From Dehalococcoidia bacterium (GTDB lineage Bacteria; Chloroflexota; Dehalococcoidia; CAUJGQ01): 64,000 nucleotides of DNA. The stretch is taken from positions 1 to 64,000 of the forward strand of contig DATGEL010000061.1 in NCBI GenBank assembly GCA_035310145.1. The letters are read 5' to 3'. Below the pieces are notes generated by a model. The model worked only from the letters and a program-made list of their open reading frames with translations. It was not told the origin of the DNA and did not search any database. Shown here in pieces: positions 49,288 through 55,372 of this stretch. Each line of letters starts with the position of its first letter. Positions within the stretch are counted from its first letter, which is position 1. The translations under genes were made by a program, and so were the position numbers.

Positions 49288-49746
49288 CTACGGCGTGAGC
49301 GGATAGCTGCTGATGTCCCGGACCCACGGCGCTCGGCCGCCGAGCGCCGTGAGCAGGCGCTTGTCCGCCGTCCACAGCTCGGCGCCGAATAGCTGCGCGA
49401 GCACGACGTAGAGCGCGTCGTAGATCGCCCCAAGGTGGTGGAGCGCCGCGAAGTCGAGCGCTCGCTCGTAGAGGGCTGGCGGATCGAGCGTCTCGATCGG
49501 GTAGCGGAGCAACTGGCTCAGCGCGTTGTCCACTCCCACACGATCGAGCCGCTTCGCCTGGTCGGCGGTTCTGAGACGCTGGTAGATCCCGTTGGCGGCC
49601 TCGCCGCGCATGTGGGGCGGAGCGAACATCCCGCGTCCGTCTCGAATGCAATCATCGACCAAAGCGCGTGCGTTGTTTGTAGATTGCTCGATGACTACGA
49701 GCTTGATCGCAACGCTGGCATCAATGACCACCGGTGGTCGATTCAT
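49288..49746 (-). CDS. PIN-domain toxin VapC (module 1)
   Basis: The 152-residue protein has the PIN acidic residues in VVIDASVAIKLVV, EAANGIYQRL, IYDALYVVLA and LWTADKRLLTAL. VapC proteins are RNases inhibited by a cognate antitoxin. It overlaps the XRE-type antitoxin gene by four bases (ATGA), which sets both ends. Clearly a paralogue of the toxin at 50260-50718. Family firm; target RNA unknown. Confidence 0.9.
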   Translation of the reverse strand: MNRPPVVIDASVAIKLVVIEQSTNNARALVDDCIRDGRGMFAPPHMRGEAANGIYQRLRTADQAKRLDRVGVDNALSQLLRYPIETLDPPALYERALDFAALHHLGAIYDALYVVLAQLFGAELWTADKRLLTALGGRAPWVRDISSYPLTP

Positions 49747-50168
49747 AGCAGCCGCGAGCGCTCGTCGCGCGCGGCATTAATGAGCGGCCAGGATTCATCG
49801 AACGGCACGCCGCCTCGCGCGGCCAGTTGCTCCTCCAGTGATTGGCGCGACTCTTCTAACAGCGCCAGCGCCCGCTCGCGTTCTTCGTCGGTCAGCGGCC
49901 TGATCTGCGCCCGCAATGCAGCGATCTGCTCAGCCTCCGCGCTGTTACGACCCGCGCTGCCGTTGCGGTCCAACTCGAACAGGTCGCCGGGCTCACAGCC
50001 GAGCGCGTCGCAGAGCCGGGCCAGTGTCTCGAACTGGATGCCGTGTACCGCGCCGCGTTCCAGCGAAGAAACGGTGTCGGGCCGTATCCCGGCGGCGGCG
50101 GCGACCTGGCGCTGCGACAGGCGCCGGCTGGCGCGGAGTTCGGGAAGACGCAAACGGATGCGGCTCAT
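49743..50168 (-). CDS. XRE-type antitoxin, partner of VapC module 1
   Basis: The 141-residue protein has an XRE helix-turn-helix (LRASRRLSQRQVAAAAGIRPDTVSSLERG, then LCDALGCEPGDLF) and a C-terminal segment (LTDEERERALALLEESRQSLE, GVPFDESWPLINAARDERSRLL) shared with the antitoxin of module 2. The shared segment is the probable toxin-binding part. A 14-base palindrome lies 26-39 bases upstream and is its likely operator. Confidence 0.88.
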   Translation of the reverse strand: MSRIRLRLPELRASRRLSQRQVAAAAGIRPDTVSSLERGAVHGIQFETLARLCDALGCEPGDLFELDRNGSAGRNSAEAEQIAALRAQIRPLTDEERERALALLEESRQSLEEQLAARGGVPFDESWPLINAARDERSRLL

Positions 50169-50193
50169 GTGACACGCTCCGTTCCATTAATAG

Positions 50194-50207
50194 CACGGTA
50201 TACCGTG
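50194..50207. promoter_or_regulatory. Perfect palindromic operator
   Basis: CACGGTATACCGTG is a perfect 14-base palindrome upstream of the XRE antitoxin gene and contains TATACC on the minus strand, overlapping a possible -10. Typical placement for autoregulation by the antitoxin. Confidence 0.6.
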
Positions 50208-50259
50208 GCAGATGCAGGATACATTGAGCCGGCTGCACGCGCTATGTCGCGCGTGACCA

Positions 50260-50718
50260 TCAAGCGAGAGGATAGCTGGCAATGTCCCGCACCCACGGCG
50301 CGGCGCTGTTGAGTGCGGTGAGCAGGCGCTGGTCCGCCGTCCACAACTCGGCGCCGAGCATCTGCGCGAGCACGACGTAGATCGCGTCGTAGACGCTCGG
50401 CAGGCGGTGGGCCGTGGCGAAATCGAGGGCATGCCCATAGATGCCAAACGGCGCCAGTACTTCGAGCGGTTGGTCGAGAAGATCCACGATAGCGCCGGCG
50501 GCCTCGGCCAACGGGATCGCCATGATTGGATCGGTTGTACGGAGTCGCTGATAGATGGCATTGGTTGCCTCGGGAAGCATCGATGGCGGCGCAGTGATTG
50601 GACAATCTTCTCGCAGGCTGTCGATCAGGAGAGCGATCGCCTGCTGACTGTGCTCTTCTTCGAGCACCCACTTTACGGCGACGCTGGCATCGACCACGAT
50701 TGGCGCGATTCCTACCAA
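50260..50718 (-). CDS. PIN-domain toxin VapC (module 2)
   Basis: The 152-residue protein is a paralogue of the toxin at 49288-49746: IVVDASVAVKWVL, EATNAIYQRLRTTDP, VYDAIYVVLAQMLGAELWTADQRLLTALNSAAPWVRDIASYPL against the same regions there. All four acidic PIN residues are present. It overlaps its antitoxin gene by seven bases. Activity inferred. Confidence 0.9.
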   Translation of the reverse strand: MVGIAPIVVDASVAVKWVLEEEHSQQAIALLIDSLREDCPITAPPSMLPEATNAIYQRLRTTDPIMAIPLAEAAGAIVDLLDQPLEVLAPFGIYGHALDFATAHRLPSVYDAIYVVLAQMLGAELWTADQRLLTALNSAAPWVRDIASYPLA

Positions 50719-51104
50719 TGTCGCGCGGGATCCTCTCTGGCCGCGCGAATGATCGGCCAGGATTCGCCAAGCGGCGCGCCGCGCTCAGCACGCATGCGCG
50801 CCATGCGTTGTCGGGAGCGCTCGAGCGCGGCCAGCCCGCGCCGCACCTCCTCATCCGACAGGCGTCGAGGCCGCGGTATCTCCCCGCCAGCTCCGGTACG
50901 GGTGGTTCCAGCCGGGGTGGCTGCCGTCACCGGAAGCACGAGGTTCGCAAGATCCTCCCGACGCAGGCGCAGCGCCCGCGGGCCGACGTGATACGCCCGC
51001 AGCCGGCCCTGCTTCAGCCAGCGGTGAATCGTTACCTGGCTGACTCGGAGCAGTTGCGCCGCCTCTTTCACCGTGATCAGATCGAGATCCTGTTCGACGG
51101 CCAT
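50712..51104 (-). CDS. Excisionase-type (HTH_17) antitoxin of module 2
   Basis: The 130-residue protein has an excisionase-like helix-turn-helix (DLITVKEAAQLLRVSQVTIHRWLKQGRLRAYHVGPRALRLRREDLANLV), an Ala/Thr/Gly linker, then LSDEEVRRGLAALERSRQRM and GAPLGESWPIIRAAREDPARHW, which match the end of the XRE antitoxin of module 1. The ATG at 51104 is chosen because it begins the domain. Just upstream are GCGTTATGA and GCGTATGA direct repeats. Confidence 0.85.
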   Translation of the reverse strand: MAVEQDLDLITVKEAAQLLRVSQVTIHRWLKQGRLRAYHVGPRALRLRREDLANLVLPVTAATPAGTTRTGAGGEIPRPRRLSDEEVRRGLAALERSRQRMARMRAERGAPLGESWPIIRAAREDPARHW

Positions 51105-51151
51105 GGCGTCCCTCGTGCGGTTAGCGCCGTACCATTGATGCTCATACGCTA

Positions 51152-51559
51152 TCATAACGCATCTTCGGCCGGCCCGGCGCCGATCACCCTGCCCGCGGCG
51201 TCGGTGCGCAGCGGGCCGGTGGTCATATCGAGCAGCACCAGTTGTGTGCCCCAGGGATCCTCGACCACCACGCAGCGGCCGATGGCGATTGCGAACGGCC
51301 CGGCGACGATTCTGCCGCCCGCTGCAACGAAGCGCGCGGCCGCAGCCTCGGCGGAATCGACCAGCCAGTCGATCTCCGGGCCGGGCCGCTCGGACTGCAA
51401 CACCAGCTCCTCACTACCTTCCGGCAGGCGCAGACCGGCCGCGGTCGCGCTGCGCCAGTTGAGCTGGTGGCCGAGCTTGTCGCGGTAGAAGGCCAGCCCC
51501 GCTTCGAGGTCGGGCACGGCGATCTGGATGCTGTCGATCCTGCGGAACAGCGGCTCCAT
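51152..51559 (-). CDS. VOC-family (glyoxalase-like) protein
   Basis: The 135-residue protein has the vicinal oxygen chelate pattern: IDSIQIAVPDLEAGLAFYRDKLGHQLNWR, SERPGPEIDWLVDSAEAAAARFVAAGGRIVAGP, IAIGRCVVVEDPWGTQLVLLD. Metal-binding residues are not fully evident, so it may be an enzyme or a binding protein. It begins 14 bases after the glutamine synthetase stop, so the two are cotranscribed. Family firm; function unknown. Confidence 0.87.
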   Translation of the reverse strand: MEPLFRRIDSIQIAVPDLEAGLAFYRDKLGHQLNWRSATAAGLRLPEGSEELVLQSERPGPEIDWLVDSAEAAAARFVAAGGRIVAGPFAIAIGRCVVVEDPWGTQLVLLDMTTGPLRTDAAGRVIGAGPAEDAL

Positions 51560-51573
51560 GCTTGCCTGCCGTC

Positions 51574-53550
51574 TCAGACCTCGGCGCCGCTGGCCGCCAC
51601 GGCGGAGAAGAGGCGCAGCGAGTCCACGGCGGCGGCATCGGGCAGTGGATCGAGCACGTTGCGCGTATAGGCGACGTAGCGCCGGCGCAGCTCTCCCATC
51701 TGCGTGTTCATCTCCTGCTGCAGCGCGGACACCTCCGCATGGTCCGGGTGGGCGATGGCGGCGCGCACGCGCGAGAAGAGCGAGGGCTCAAGCCGGCGGT
51801 CCTGCGCCAACTGGCGCCGCAGCGCATCGACCTCGCTCCACAGCTCGTCGACCAGATCGCTTTGCTCGTTGGCGTGGATGCGACGGCACTCGCGCACGGC
51901 GTCCATGTTGGCGGCCAGGATGCGCTCGCTCAGCTCCAGCAGCCAGCGTGTGCGCATCGCTTCGGCGTAGGAATTGATCGTGCGCTCGTCGAACACGCCG
52001 TCGGCCAGCAGCACCGAGCGGCCCTCGGCATCGGCGTCCAGCGTGCGCAGCGTCTCGAAGACCGTGGCCGGCGGCTTGCCGAAGAGACGGTCGCGCTCGG
52101 CCTGGTCGTAGTGCTCGAAGACGTCCGCCTCGCTGCGGTAGGCGCGCGCGGTCTCCAGGTAGGCGCCTGGCTCGCCCGGCTTCTTGGAGAACTCGGCCTG
52201 CAGCTCGCCGGCGGAGCGGCCCGACTTCAGCGCATACGAGATGCCGTCCAGCATCGCCTGGTACATCGCCGCGATCGCCAGGTAGCTGTTGGTGTGCGGG
52301 TTCGGCGCCCGCACCTCGAAGCGCGTCGCCAGCGGGCTCTCGCGGTCGCGCACCAGGCCGGCGAGCACGCTGCGGTTGCGCGACGGCTCTTCGACCGTGT
52401 GGCCGACGGCCGCGACCGCGCAGACCGGCGCTTCGAAGCCGGGCTTCAGCCGGTTGAAAGCGTCGGTGGAGCAGGTGACGAAGGGGCTGACCACGTCCCA
52501 GCGGCGCAGCAGGCCCATCAGCGCGCCCCAGCCGATCGGGCTCAGGTAGTCGCGCCCCGGCTCGGCGGCGGTGAACAGGTTCTTGACCGAGCCGTCGCGC
52601 AGGCGCACGGCGATGCCGATATGCGTGTGCTCGCCGCTGCCGGCCACGCCCTCGATCGGCTTGGCCAGGAACGTCACCTCCAGGCCCACCGAGCGGAAAG
52701 CGCGGGCGATCAGGCTGCGGGCCAGCAGCTCGTTGTCGGCGGCTTCGAGGGCCGTGGCGAAGCGCCAGTCGATCTCGATCTGCTCCATCACGGCGATGCC
52801 GTGCGAGCCCGCCAGCCGCGCGTCGACGCCGCCGACCTCCTTGTGGCCCATCTCCGGCCGCAGGCCACAGGCCTCAAGCAGGGTCAGCGCCCGCTCGAGC
52901 CCCGTGCGCACGGCGCCCCGGGTCGGCTTCCAGTACTGCTCCTGCAGCGCCTGCGAGACGGCGAGCTGCTCGACCTCCTCGCGCGTGCCCGGCGTGCGCA
53001 CCCAGAACTCGAGCTCCGTGGCGCTGGTAAGCAGCACGTCTGCGACCTCGCCGGGCTCGAAACCCAGCGCCCGCGCCGCCGCGGGATGCTGCGCGAACAG
53101 CGCCAGCAGCCGGCGCTCTGCCGAGGCCTCGGCCCGCGCCAGCACGGCACGGGCATCCACCCGCTTGCCGGCATGCTCCAAAGAGGCGGGGATCTTGACC
53201 GTGCCTACCGGCAGGCCCGTGGCCTCGTCGCGGTAGTCGTCGTTGTAATCCACGATCCAGCGGGCGGCGGGGTCGGCGATCAGATCGACCTTGCCGTCGT
53301 TCAGCGTGGCGATGCCGGGCAGCACCACGCTGGAGCCGTCGGTCTGCACGCCGCCCGCGAGCAAGGTCTCGGCGTCGGGCAGGAAGGTGGAAACGGGGAT
53401 GCGCTCGTCGGTCTCGTTGCCGCCCAGGTCGACGCCGACCAGCGAAACGAAACGCACGTTGGGGTGGGCGGCGACGAACTGGCGCAGACCGGCAGCGCTG
53501 CGCTGCTCGGCCGCCAGCGCGAGCGGCAAGGTGGCAGAAATGTCGGGCAT
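51574..53550 (-). CDS. Glutamine synthetase, large (type III-like) form
   Basis: The 658-residue enzyme makes glutamine from glutamate, ammonia and ATP. It has the catalytic barrel (SATELEFWVRTPG, GLRPEMGHKEVGG, GSGEHTHIGIAVR, VEEPSRNRSVLAGLVRDRESPLATRFEVRAPNPHTNSYLAIAAMYQAML) with a long N-terminal part (LVGVDLGGNETDERIPVSTFL) and a C-terminal helical extension. This is longer than GlnA of GSI type (about 450) and closest in size to GlnN-like enzymes. The ATG at 53550 follows AGGAGGATCCCTG. It lies near GOGAT, with the TA island in between. Subtype uncertain. Confidence 0.9.
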   Translation of the reverse strand: MPDISATLPLALAAEQRSAAGLRQFVAAHPNVRFVSLVGVDLGGNETDERIPVSTFLPDAETLLAGGVQTDGSSVVLPGIATLNDGKVDLIADPAARWIVDYNDDYRDEATGLPVGTVKIPASLEHAGKRVDARAVLARAEASAERRLLALFAQHPAAARALGFEPGEVADVLLTSATELEFWVRTPGTREEVEQLAVSQALQEQYWKPTRGAVRTGLERALTLLEACGLRPEMGHKEVGGVDARLAGSHGIAVMEQIEIDWRFATALEAADNELLARSLIARAFRSVGLEVTFLAKPIEGVAGSGEHTHIGIAVRLRDGSVKNLFTAAEPGRDYLSPIGWGALMGLLRRWDVVSPFVTCSTDAFNRLKPGFEAPVCAVAAVGHTVEEPSRNRSVLAGLVRDRESPLATRFEVRAPNPHTNSYLAIAAMYQAMLDGISYALKSGRSAGELQAEFSKKPGEPGAYLETARAYRSEADVFEHYDQAERDRLFGKPPATVFETLRTLDADAEGRSVLLADGVFDERTINSYAEAMRTRWLLELSERILAANMDAVRECRRIHANEQSDLVDELWSEVDALRRQLAQDRRLEPSLFSRVRAAIAHPDHAEVSALQQEMNTQMGELRRRYVAYTRNVLDPLPDAAAVDSLRLFSAVAASGAEV

Positions 53551-53694
53551 CAGGGATCCTCCTGCGGGATGAACCGCATGCCTACATACGCACCATACGA
53601 TTTCGCCGGATATGGTCCCACCGCTGAGCGCCGGTGCGAGGGCGAAGGGTAGCGGGCAAAGTGGGCGCTTCACGCCTTGTCCTTCTCAGCCGGC

Positions 53695-53723
53695 TTCACG
53701 CGCGGGCAGGCGGCGGCTATGAT
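53695..53723 (+). promoter_or_regulatory. Promoter for the aspS T-box transcript
   Basis: TTCACG (53695-53700), a 17-base spacer and TATGAT (53718-53723) form a sigma-70-type promoter upstream of the T-box leader. The start would be near 53730. Confidence 0.6.
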
Positions 53724-53754
53724 CGAGGGACAAGGGCGCGTCGCGCGCCTGCAT

Positions 53755-54031
53755 CGCCAACGCGACGACGGAGAGAAGCGGCGGAGCACAGCGCAGCCCA
53801 GAGAGCCGCCGATGCTGCAAATGCGGCCTGCGCTGCCCGCTCAAGACCCTCCCGAGCGCGGGGAAGAACGGGCGCCCTTCGCCCCCAAGCCCCGCCGGCC
53901 AGCCCCCGTTAGCAGGCATCAAGGCCGCGTCGTGCCGTCTGAGCACGGCAGCGCGCCGGAATGCGTTCCGGCCGGCGCGGCGAAGTGCGGTGGCACCACG
54001 GGCGCCCCCTCGTCCGCACGACGAGGGGGCG
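53755..54031 (+). ncRNA. T-box leader controlling aspS, aspartate specifier
   Basis: Stem I features are visible: GACGACGGAGAGAAG, the distal helix CAGCGCAG/CTGCGCTG (53789-53796 and 53828-53835) enclosing the AGAGAG bulge (53800-53805) and GCCGCCGATGCTGCAAATGCGGC-like loop. A GAC codon at 53845-53847 is a good candidate specifier (Asp). The T-box itself, GCGGTGGCACCACG, is at 53987-54000, followed by a perfect 12-base terminator stem (54003-54014 and 54020-54031) and a T-rich stretch. Uncharged tRNA(Asp) would stabilise the antiterminator and permit aspS expression. The 520-base stretch before aspS otherwise holds no gene. Confidence 0.8.
54003..54031 (+). terminator. T-box terminator hairpin
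   Basis: CGCCCCCTCGTC (54003-54014) pairs perfectly with GACGAGGGGGCG (54020-54031) around a 5-base loop; TTGCTGTTG follows. It is the OFF structure of the T-box, 40 bases before the aspS start. Confidence 0.8.
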
Positions 54032-54070
54032 TTGCTGTTGTGCGCGCCGTGCCGCGCTGGAGGTGTCGCC

Positions 54071-55372
54071 GTGGAACGTATCTTCGCATCCGAACTGCCG
54101 AACCATGCCGGCGAGCGCGTGCGCCTGCAGGGCTGGCTGCACCGCCTGCGCCGCCTGAGCGAGGTGACATTCCTCGTGCTGCGCGATGCGAGCGGACTCG
54201 CCCAGGTCGTCGTCCACGACTCGGCGCTCGATGCGCGCCTGGCCGAACTGCACGCCGAGTCGGTGCTCGCGGTCGAAGGGCTGGCGGTGGCGATGCCGCA
54301 GGCGCCGGGCGGCGTCGAGCTGCACGAGCCGAGCGTGGAGCCGATCGCGCCCGCCGCCGAACCGCCGCCATTCGACCTCTTCCGCCCCGCGATCAAGGCG
54401 CTGCTGCCCACGATCCTCGACCACGCGCCGCTGAGCCTGCGCCACCCGGCGCACCGTGCCCGCTTCCGCCTCGCCGCAGCGGCAATGGAGGGCTTCCGCC
54501 AAACCCTGCGGGCGCGGCGCTTCGTCGAGATCCAGACGCCCAAGCTGGTCGGCTCCGCGACGGAGGGCGGCGCCAACGTCTTCCGCCTCGACTACTTCGG
54601 CCGGCCGGCATATCTGGCGCAGAGCCCGCAGTTCTACAAGCAGATCATGGTGGGCGTGTTCGAGCGCGTGTTCGAGGTGGGGCCGGTGTTCCGCGCGGAG
54701 CCCCACGACACGCCGCGCCACCTGAACGAGTACGTCTCGCTCGACGCCGAGCTGGGCTTCATCGCCGACCACACGAGCGTGATGGCCGTGCTCGGCGACG
54801 TGCTCCGCGGCATGCTGGCCGCCGTCGCGGCAGAGTGCGCCGTCGAACTCAGCCTGCTGCGCGTCGAGCTGCCGAGCGTGCCCGAGACGATTCCCGCGAT
54901 CCACTTCGCCGAGGCGCAGGCGCTGCTGGCGCGCGAGAGCGGTGAAGATCCGCGTGGCGAGCCGGACCTGGCGCCGGCGCACGAGCGCTGGCTGGGCGAG
55001 TGGACGCGGCGCGAGCACGGCTCCGATTTCCTCTTCGTCGCGGGCTATCCCATGGTGAAGCGGCCGTTCTACACCCATCCGGATCCGGCGCGGCCCGCCT
55101 TCTCGAACAGCTTCGACCTGCTCTTCCGCGGGCTGGAGCTGGTAACCGGCGGCCAGCGCCTGCATCTGTATGCCGACTACCTGGCGGCGCTGGCGCGGAA
55201 CGGCCTCGATCCGGCGGACTTCGCCGGCTATCTCGAAGCGTTTAAGCACGGCATGCCGCCGCACGGCGGCTTTGCCATCGGCCTGGAGCGCTTCGTCGGC
55301 CGGCTGATCGGCGCCGCCAATATTCGCGAGGCGACGCTGTTTCCGCGCGACCTCAGCCGCCTGGCGCCGTAA
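54071..55372 (+). CDS. aspS: Aspartyl-tRNA synthetase, archaeal type (probably non-discriminating)
   Basis: The 433-residue class II enzyme has an N-terminal OB fold (RVRLQGWLHRLRRLSEVTFLVLRDASGLAQVVV), motif 2 and 3 regions (VFEVGPVFRAEPHDTPRHLNEYVSLD; GGFAIGLERFVGRLIGAANIREATLFPRD) and no GAD insertion domain, so it is of the shorter archaeal/eukaryotic type. The His in GWLH corresponds to the position where discriminating archaeal enzymes carry Trp, so it may charge both tRNA(Asp) and tRNA(Asn). GTG 54071 follows GGAGG at the right distance. Confidence 0.9.
   Translation: MERIFASELPNHAGERVRLQGWLHRLRRLSEVTFLVLRDASGLAQVVVHDSALDARLAELHAESVLAVEGLAVAMPQAPGGVELHEPSVEPIAPAAEPPPFDLFRPAIKALLPTILDHAPLSLRHPAHRARFRLAAAAMEGFRQTLRARRFVEIQTPKLVGSATEGGANVFRLDYFGRPAYLAQSPQFYKQIMVGVFERVFEVGPVFRAEPHDTPRHLNEYVSLDAELGFIADHTSVMAVLGDVLRGMLAAVAAECAVELSLLRVELPSVPETIPAIHFAEAQALLARESGEDPRGEPDLAPAHERWLGEWTRREHGSDFLFVAGYPMVKRPFYTHPDPARPAFSNSFDLLFRGLELVTGGQRLHLYADYLAALARNGLDPADFAGYLEAFKHGMPPHGGFAIGLERFVGRLIGAANIREATLFPRDLSRLAP

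Follow-up and report, generated by a model that had tools for sequence, protein, structure and literature searches.

A T-box leader with an aspartate specifier precedes a non-discriminating-type AspRS2 gene in a Dehalococcoidia bacterium

The nearest known system to the locus described here is the T-box-controlled transamidation pathway of C. acetobutylicum, and the T-box of its AspRS2/GatCAB pathway was reportedly treated by Saad in 2012 and 2013. This T-box is reported to control the tRNA-dependent Asn pathway and to read tRNA-Asn and tRNA-Glu (PMC4206432, PMC4052509). Our locus resembled that system in having a T-box on genes of the tRNA-dependent Asn route, more than one AspRS, and GatB, where GatCAB is present in C. 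acetobutylicum. However, the C. acetobutylicum T-box is described there as reading tRNA-Asn and tRNA-Glu in front of a transamidation operon, whereas the leader here carried GAC, preceded aspS2 alone and belonged to a genome without AsnRS. The AspRS2 enzymes of T. thermophilus and D. radiodurans (1n9w, 3kfu) are of the same family as ours, with the same H and P markers, a bacterial-type AspRS1 alongside and GatCAB (GatB here). Both bacteria keep AsnRS (PMC4206432), unlike the genome studied here, and a T-box in front of their AspRS2 genes is unmentioned in the literature surveyed. As with tyrZ of B. subtilis and lysK of B. cereus, one isozyme was T-box-controlled and the other was the housekeeping enzyme; unlike those pairs, the second isozyme here would accept a different set of tRNAs and has probably taken over a task lost by AspRS1. 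Earlier work recorded T-boxes in Chloroflexota and the lack of AsnRS in those of its species whose genomes were available at the time (PMC2494555; PMC3766115). Asp- and Asn-specifier T-boxes and non-discriminating AspRS2 are thus each already known. Among the open-access papers searched, none was found that describes a T-box reading Asp in front of AspRS2 in Chloroflexota, or the changes of its specifier.

The locus was found in a stretch of 64,000 nucleotides, which is called the window below; its features are collected in Table 1. Positions 53756–54031 are a real T-box leader of known type. The first-pass annotation had proposed a complete T-box with a promoter, a stem I with AGAGAG, a T-box sequence and a 12-base terminator, and every element that it named was present. 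The leader shared stem I, AGAGAG, specifier, GAGC, CCGTTA, T-box sequence and antiterminator/terminator with the Rfam family RF00230; unlike typical members, it was very G+C-rich and divergent. In the consensus scan for promoter-like sites, the shuffled region yielded 0.0 ± 0.1. Divergent from the leader, a glutamine synthetase-like protein of ~700 aa was encoded at 51574–53673 on the minus strand; the catalytic domain of the family was matched in it, and no curated full-length model scored above cut-off. Farther off (49288–51155, minus strand) were two PIN-like small ORFs, each adjoining a small DNA-binding-like ORF (helix-turn-helix, excisionase-like); by eye, these pairs look like toxin–antitoxin pairs.

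Table 1. Features of the aspS2 locus, with positions in the window and the evidence for each.
Feature	Position	Strand	Evidence
Promoter-like -35/-10, TTCACG-17-TATGAT	53695–53723	+	Consensus scan 9/12; candidate site by sequence only
T-box stem I	53756–53863	+	RF00230 alignment; like anatomy in ~76 orthologous leaders
AGAGAG, distal region of stem I	53800–53805	+	Sequence and RF00230 alignment
Specifier triplet GAC (Asp)	53845–53847	+	RF00230 specifier column; 6 bases before GAGC, as in orthologs
GAGC (GGAGC-like) motif, base of stem I	53854–53857	+	Sequence and RF00230 alignment
Antiterminator, A1 GTGCGG/CCGCAC, A2 ACGGG/CTCGT, bulge TGGCACC	53985–54019	+	11/11 pairs; covariation in 75 leaders
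T-box sequence GGTGGCACCACG	53989–54000	+	Sole exact match within the window
Competing terminator hairpin, 12 bp, then weak U tract	54003–54031	+	-26.5 kcal/mol, z -5.9
Shine-Dalgarno GGAGG, outside the terminator hairpin	54059–54063	+	Sequence
aspS2, archaeal-type, non-discriminating-type AspRS, 433 aa, GTG start, no GAD domain	54071–55372	+	Curated models, Pfam, PDB match

The RF00230 model matched 53756–54020 across all of its 219 positions at 20.9 bits (E 0.015, high bias), well short of the 93 bits required at gathering threshold. A scan of the whole window at gathering threshold found nothing in Rfam, and matches to tfoR and to microRNAs, far under their cut-offs, were set aside as chance. 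The covariance-model search, which had been suggested as a check, gave a full-length alignment with GAC in the specifier column. A search of the own genome with RF00230 at E 0.001 returned four other T-boxes (L001–L004), without the aspS2 leader among them and with none before AspRS1 or GatB. Judged by eye, the four stood before genes resembling those for acetolactate synthase, IleRS, LeuRS and a tryptophan synthase beta-like protein.

Since the score of the window leader was weak on its own, orthologous leaders were tested. The loci came from a scan of species genomes with the downstream protein as query, in which 80 of 441 matched candidates were kept, and from a search of the phylum. Of the 111 loci, which encode AspRS2 homologs of Chloroflexota and Streptosporangiaceae, 86 had the strict T-box motif upstream of aspS2; the Streptosporangium leaders with GGTGGCACCGGG were read by eye. 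Eight orthologous leaders were scanned with Rfam, and five reached E ≤ 0.001 with 43 to 100.8 bits. The leader L058, at 100.8 bits, was above the cut-off, and L080 and L020 scored 90.5 and 85.8 bits.

The terminator hairpin has its 5′ half and loop in common with the antiterminator, of which they form the 3′ strands (A2 and A1); only one of these structures can therefore exist at a time. Across 75 leaders, the A1/A2 helices formed a mean of 10.0 of 11 pairs, compared with 8.3 of 11 for shuffled downstream sequence, and several A1 pairs showed compensatory changes (alternations of CG/TG/AT/TA and of GC/TA/CG). This covariation is good evidence that the structure is conserved. Neither the whole leader (z -0.96) nor the antiterminator alone (z 0.01) folded better than its shuffles; thus, the support comes from covariation and motif anatomy and not from stability. 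All 12 pairs of the terminator were perfect, and none of 200 shuffles was as good. Control of translation or of RNA stability in place of transcription termination would agree with the tract TTGCTGTTGT after the hairpin, which is weak, was left uncalled by the terminator scanner and is similarly poor in some close relatives. However, orthologs such as L024 and L042 pair the same hairpin with long T runs, and the hairpin does not sequester the Shine-Dalgarno sequence, which lies ~27 bases past it. We consider such control improbable for the window leader; with the Shine-Dalgarno sequence and the GTG start beyond the hairpin, transcriptional control is the natural reading. Five leaders of Streptosporangiaceae (L027, L030, L032, L035, and L037) had the same GAC T-box before aspS2 and a 3′ part without a clear terminator and T run, and these may be controlled at translation.

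GAC had been named as the specifier candidate from the window alone, a reading upheld both by the Rfam alignment and by conservation among the leaders, and it fits the controlled gene, an AspRS. Out of line with the Rfam consensus is the base 3′ of it, a C in place of A. In the set of 76 distinct leaders that were read, 70 carried GAC and six carried AAC, the Asn codon (L058, L059, L080, L111, L113, and L117, the last being given AAC after the tree was made). A blind rule, which took the triplet 6 bases before a GAG[CT] placed 49–62 bases after AGAGA, gave GAC in 54 of 67 leaders; most of the remaining 13 had a second AGAGA or a spacer one base longer or shorter and were read by eye. For L058 and L080, AAC also stood in the specifier column when they were aligned to the Rfam model. 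In five leaders (L049, L053, L083, L084, and L105), AAC stood immediately 5′ of the GAC specifier in stem I. This AACGAC could be a tandem reading of Asn and Asp, or it may be the GAA of loop E followed by a C by chance. Two tandem T-box motifs preceded aspS2 in the upstream regions of L045 (2088 and 2317) and L076 (330 and 463), and in both regions the reading of a complete stem I with GAC was limited to the first motif.

On a tree of 99 AspRS2 proteins, AAC appeared at three separate places: L058, L080, and a clade of L059, L111, L113, and L117. The leader L080 was placed beside the GAC-bearing L079 with a branch support of 99. This required a minimum of three changes between GAC and AAC on a tree that is unrooted and gives no direction; from its wide spread, GAC would be the older state. 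A specifier that changed at least three times fits an enzyme that would serve both tRNAs, and the repeated swap is most easily explained if AspRS2 does so. A simple rule linking the specifier to the presence of AsnRS was rejected, because AsnRS was present in the AAC-leader genomes of L058 and L080 and absent from that of L059.

No AAC codon, overlapping or otherwise, was found in the specifier loop of the window, so the supply of Asn would be coupled to the switch indirectly. Both tRNA-Asp and tRNA-Asn of the genome have G73, and the UGGC of the bulge is able to pair with the G73-CCA end of a tRNA. The C of UGGC suits the G73 of either tRNA, and thus the anticodon must discriminate between them. 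Direct sensing of both tRNAs was also considered. GAC would then be read by tRNA-Asp with three Watson-Crick pairs and by tRNA-Asn (anticodon GUU), for which the first of the three pairs would be G-U, and a shortage of either would induce AspRS2. This seems doubtful to us, as T-boxes usually need full specifier pairing, the lineages that switched to AAC would have given up the reading of tRNA-Asp, and the loop offers no overlapping AAC. It is nevertheless true that the one G-U pair is the sole departure from a perfect match to tRNA-Asn and that the G73 of both tRNAs faces the same C, and there are loose precedents in a lysK T-box for which uncharged tRNA-Asn is a further signal (PMC2916919) and in the two-codon T-box of C. 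acetobutylicum, as reviewed in PMC4052509.

The product of aspS2 exceeded the cut-offs of the curated models for aspartate–tRNA(Asn) ligase (NF003483, 551 bits with a cut-off of 353; TIGR00458, 377 bits with a cut-off of 368) and stayed under those for AsnRS and for bacterial AspRS. An identity as AsnRS was rejected on TIGR00457 (203.9 of 342.6 bits) and NF003037 (212 of 414). Its Pfam domains were the OB-fold and tRNA-synt_2 only, with no GAD insertion domain, in agreement with the earlier description of an archaeal-type AspRS. The nearest solved structure was 1n9w, the AspRS2 of T. thermophilus, which was deposited as non-discriminating and archaeal-type. An alignment with 1n9w and 3nel showed that the H of GWLH and the P of QAPGG are common to AspRS2 here and that of T. 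thermophilus; at the same positions, the AspRS of T. kodakarensis (3nel, 1b8a) has W and K. These positions (W26 and K85 of T. kodakarensis, in the anticodon-binding domain) govern tolerance of tRNA-Asn in archaeal-type enzymes. The first-pass annotation had taken the His of GWLH as a hint of a non-discriminating enzyme, a suggestion strengthened here by the cut-offs, the closest structure and the two markers, all of which point to a putative non-discriminating AspRS2.

The genome is 5.3 Mb in size and 99.8% complete. It contained three class II synthetases of the D/K/N group: a bacterial AspRS1, LysRS, and AspRS2. The presence of AsnRS and GatCAB had been named as a point to check; no AsnRS was found in the own genome or in 20 class relatives, and GatB was present in one copy, both outcomes in favour of the earlier reading. 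No AsnB was found in the own genome, where weak matches to the Asn_synthase domain proved to be MnmA and ArgG. The tRNA-Asn has U1-A72 and the tRNA-Asp has G1-C72; U1-A72 is the pair recognised by bacterial GatCAB (PMC4206432). Because no AsnRS exists in this bacterium, AspRS2 is probably also the source of the asparagine used in its proteins. AsnRS was found beside AspRS2 in 33 of 50 other AspRS2 genomes, which means that a dual role of AspRS2 is not obligatory in general.

The bacterial-type AspRS1 had been overlooked by the earlier reading, and its presence means that the T-box switch is not in control of the only AspRS. In bacterial-type AspRS1, the residues H31 and G82 confer tolerance of tRNA-Asn. 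Both are kept in 14 class relatives (13 siblings and G001, a family relative with its own AspRS2), in which the AspRS1 has DHG and, in the next loop, a G as in RPxGTEN; this genome has DQGG and REARWVN, with Q and R in their places. The tolerance residues are carried by the AspRS of P. aeruginosa, which is labelled Asp/Asn in the PDB, and are replaced in that of E. coli. The R here stands where the E. coli enzyme has K, which is consistent with a discriminating enzyme. In the 13 siblings, which have neither AspRS2 nor AsnRS, AspRS1 is the only known candidate for charging tRNA-Asn, and in G001 it retains both residues in spite of an additional AspRS2. With both residues changed in our genome, we infer that AspRS1 now accepts tRNA-Asp only, which probably leaves AspRS2 alone in making Asp-tRNA(Asn).

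Even with Q and R, tRNA-Asn may remain a substrate of AspRS1. In the main rival explanation, AspRS2 would then be an inducible spare AspRS for aspartate shortage, comparable to the T-box-controlled duplicate synthetases of Bacillus, and the supply of Asn would not be its purpose. Most leaders do carry GAC and not AAC, AsnRS accompanies AspRS2 in the majority of other genomes counted above, and most other AspRS1 proteins keep H31 even without AsnRS, all of which this explanation would accommodate. It does not account for an AspRS1 deprived of both tolerance residues in a genome without AsnRS, nor for three separate changes between GAC and AAC or the non-discriminating markers on AspRS2, and we regard it as unlikely, though not negligible.

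Within the class, AspRS2 was confined to 2 of 197 genomes. The window protein fell within a clade of 25 entries of the 99-protein tree (support 99), which included Chloroflexales-like and Streptosporangiaceae sequences, and its closest relative was that of L020 (75% identity). The AspRS2 of G001 was placed elsewhere. The simplest reading of the tree is that AspRS2 was acquired twice independently and on both occasions together with a GAC T-box. The patchy distribution and the apparent horizontal transfer of leader plus gene would also suit an inhibitor-tolerant spare that the T-box would switch on if AspRS1 were poisoned. Antibiotic producers and resistant strains have a second IleRS, TrpRS or SerRS of this kind, and such roles are on record for other synthetases (PMC9437257). 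However, no biosynthetic or resistance genes were noticed adjoining aspS2, and the same gene set recurs in organisms without AsnRS, so that we give this explanation very little credence. A bolder proposal is that GAC is a two-tRNA sensor matched to a two-tRNA enzyme, that leader and aspS2 move between phyla as a cassette, and that AspRS1 was then freed from tRNA-Asn, leaving the T-box to govern all protein Asn; as a whole, it is a long shot.

The reading that we prefer, with a probability of roughly 0.7, is that an antitermination T-box reading tRNA-Asp through GAC controls a horizontally acquired, non-discriminating AspRS2, and that Asp-tRNA(Asp) and Asn-tRNA(Asn) would both depend on this switch for their supply. 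Anatomy, specifier, gene content and residue changes are its basis at the level of sequence, from which tRNA binding, antitermination, dual charging and the specificity of AspRS1 are deduced. When uncharged tRNA-Asp rises, its GUC anticodon would pair with GAC, and the UGGC bulge would take up its G73-CCA end; the antiterminator would then replace the 12-bp terminator, and AspRS2 would be made. With no AsnRS, no AsnB and an AspRS1 without the tolerance residues, a single aspartate signal would in this way set both supplies.

These loci are useful as a large natural series, drawn from Chloroflexota and some of the Actinomycetota, that combines one leader with one enzyme and shows at least three swaps of the specifier from Asp to Asn or the reverse. 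The series includes one lineage whose resident AspRS1 lost the residues for tolerance of tRNA-Asn. With it, one can test how a riboswitch follows an enzyme of two amino acids and how the indirect Asn pathway passes between synthetases. Should AspRS2 alone supply Asp-tRNA(Asn) in this bacterium, a single aspartate-reading T-box would govern all of its protein asparagine.
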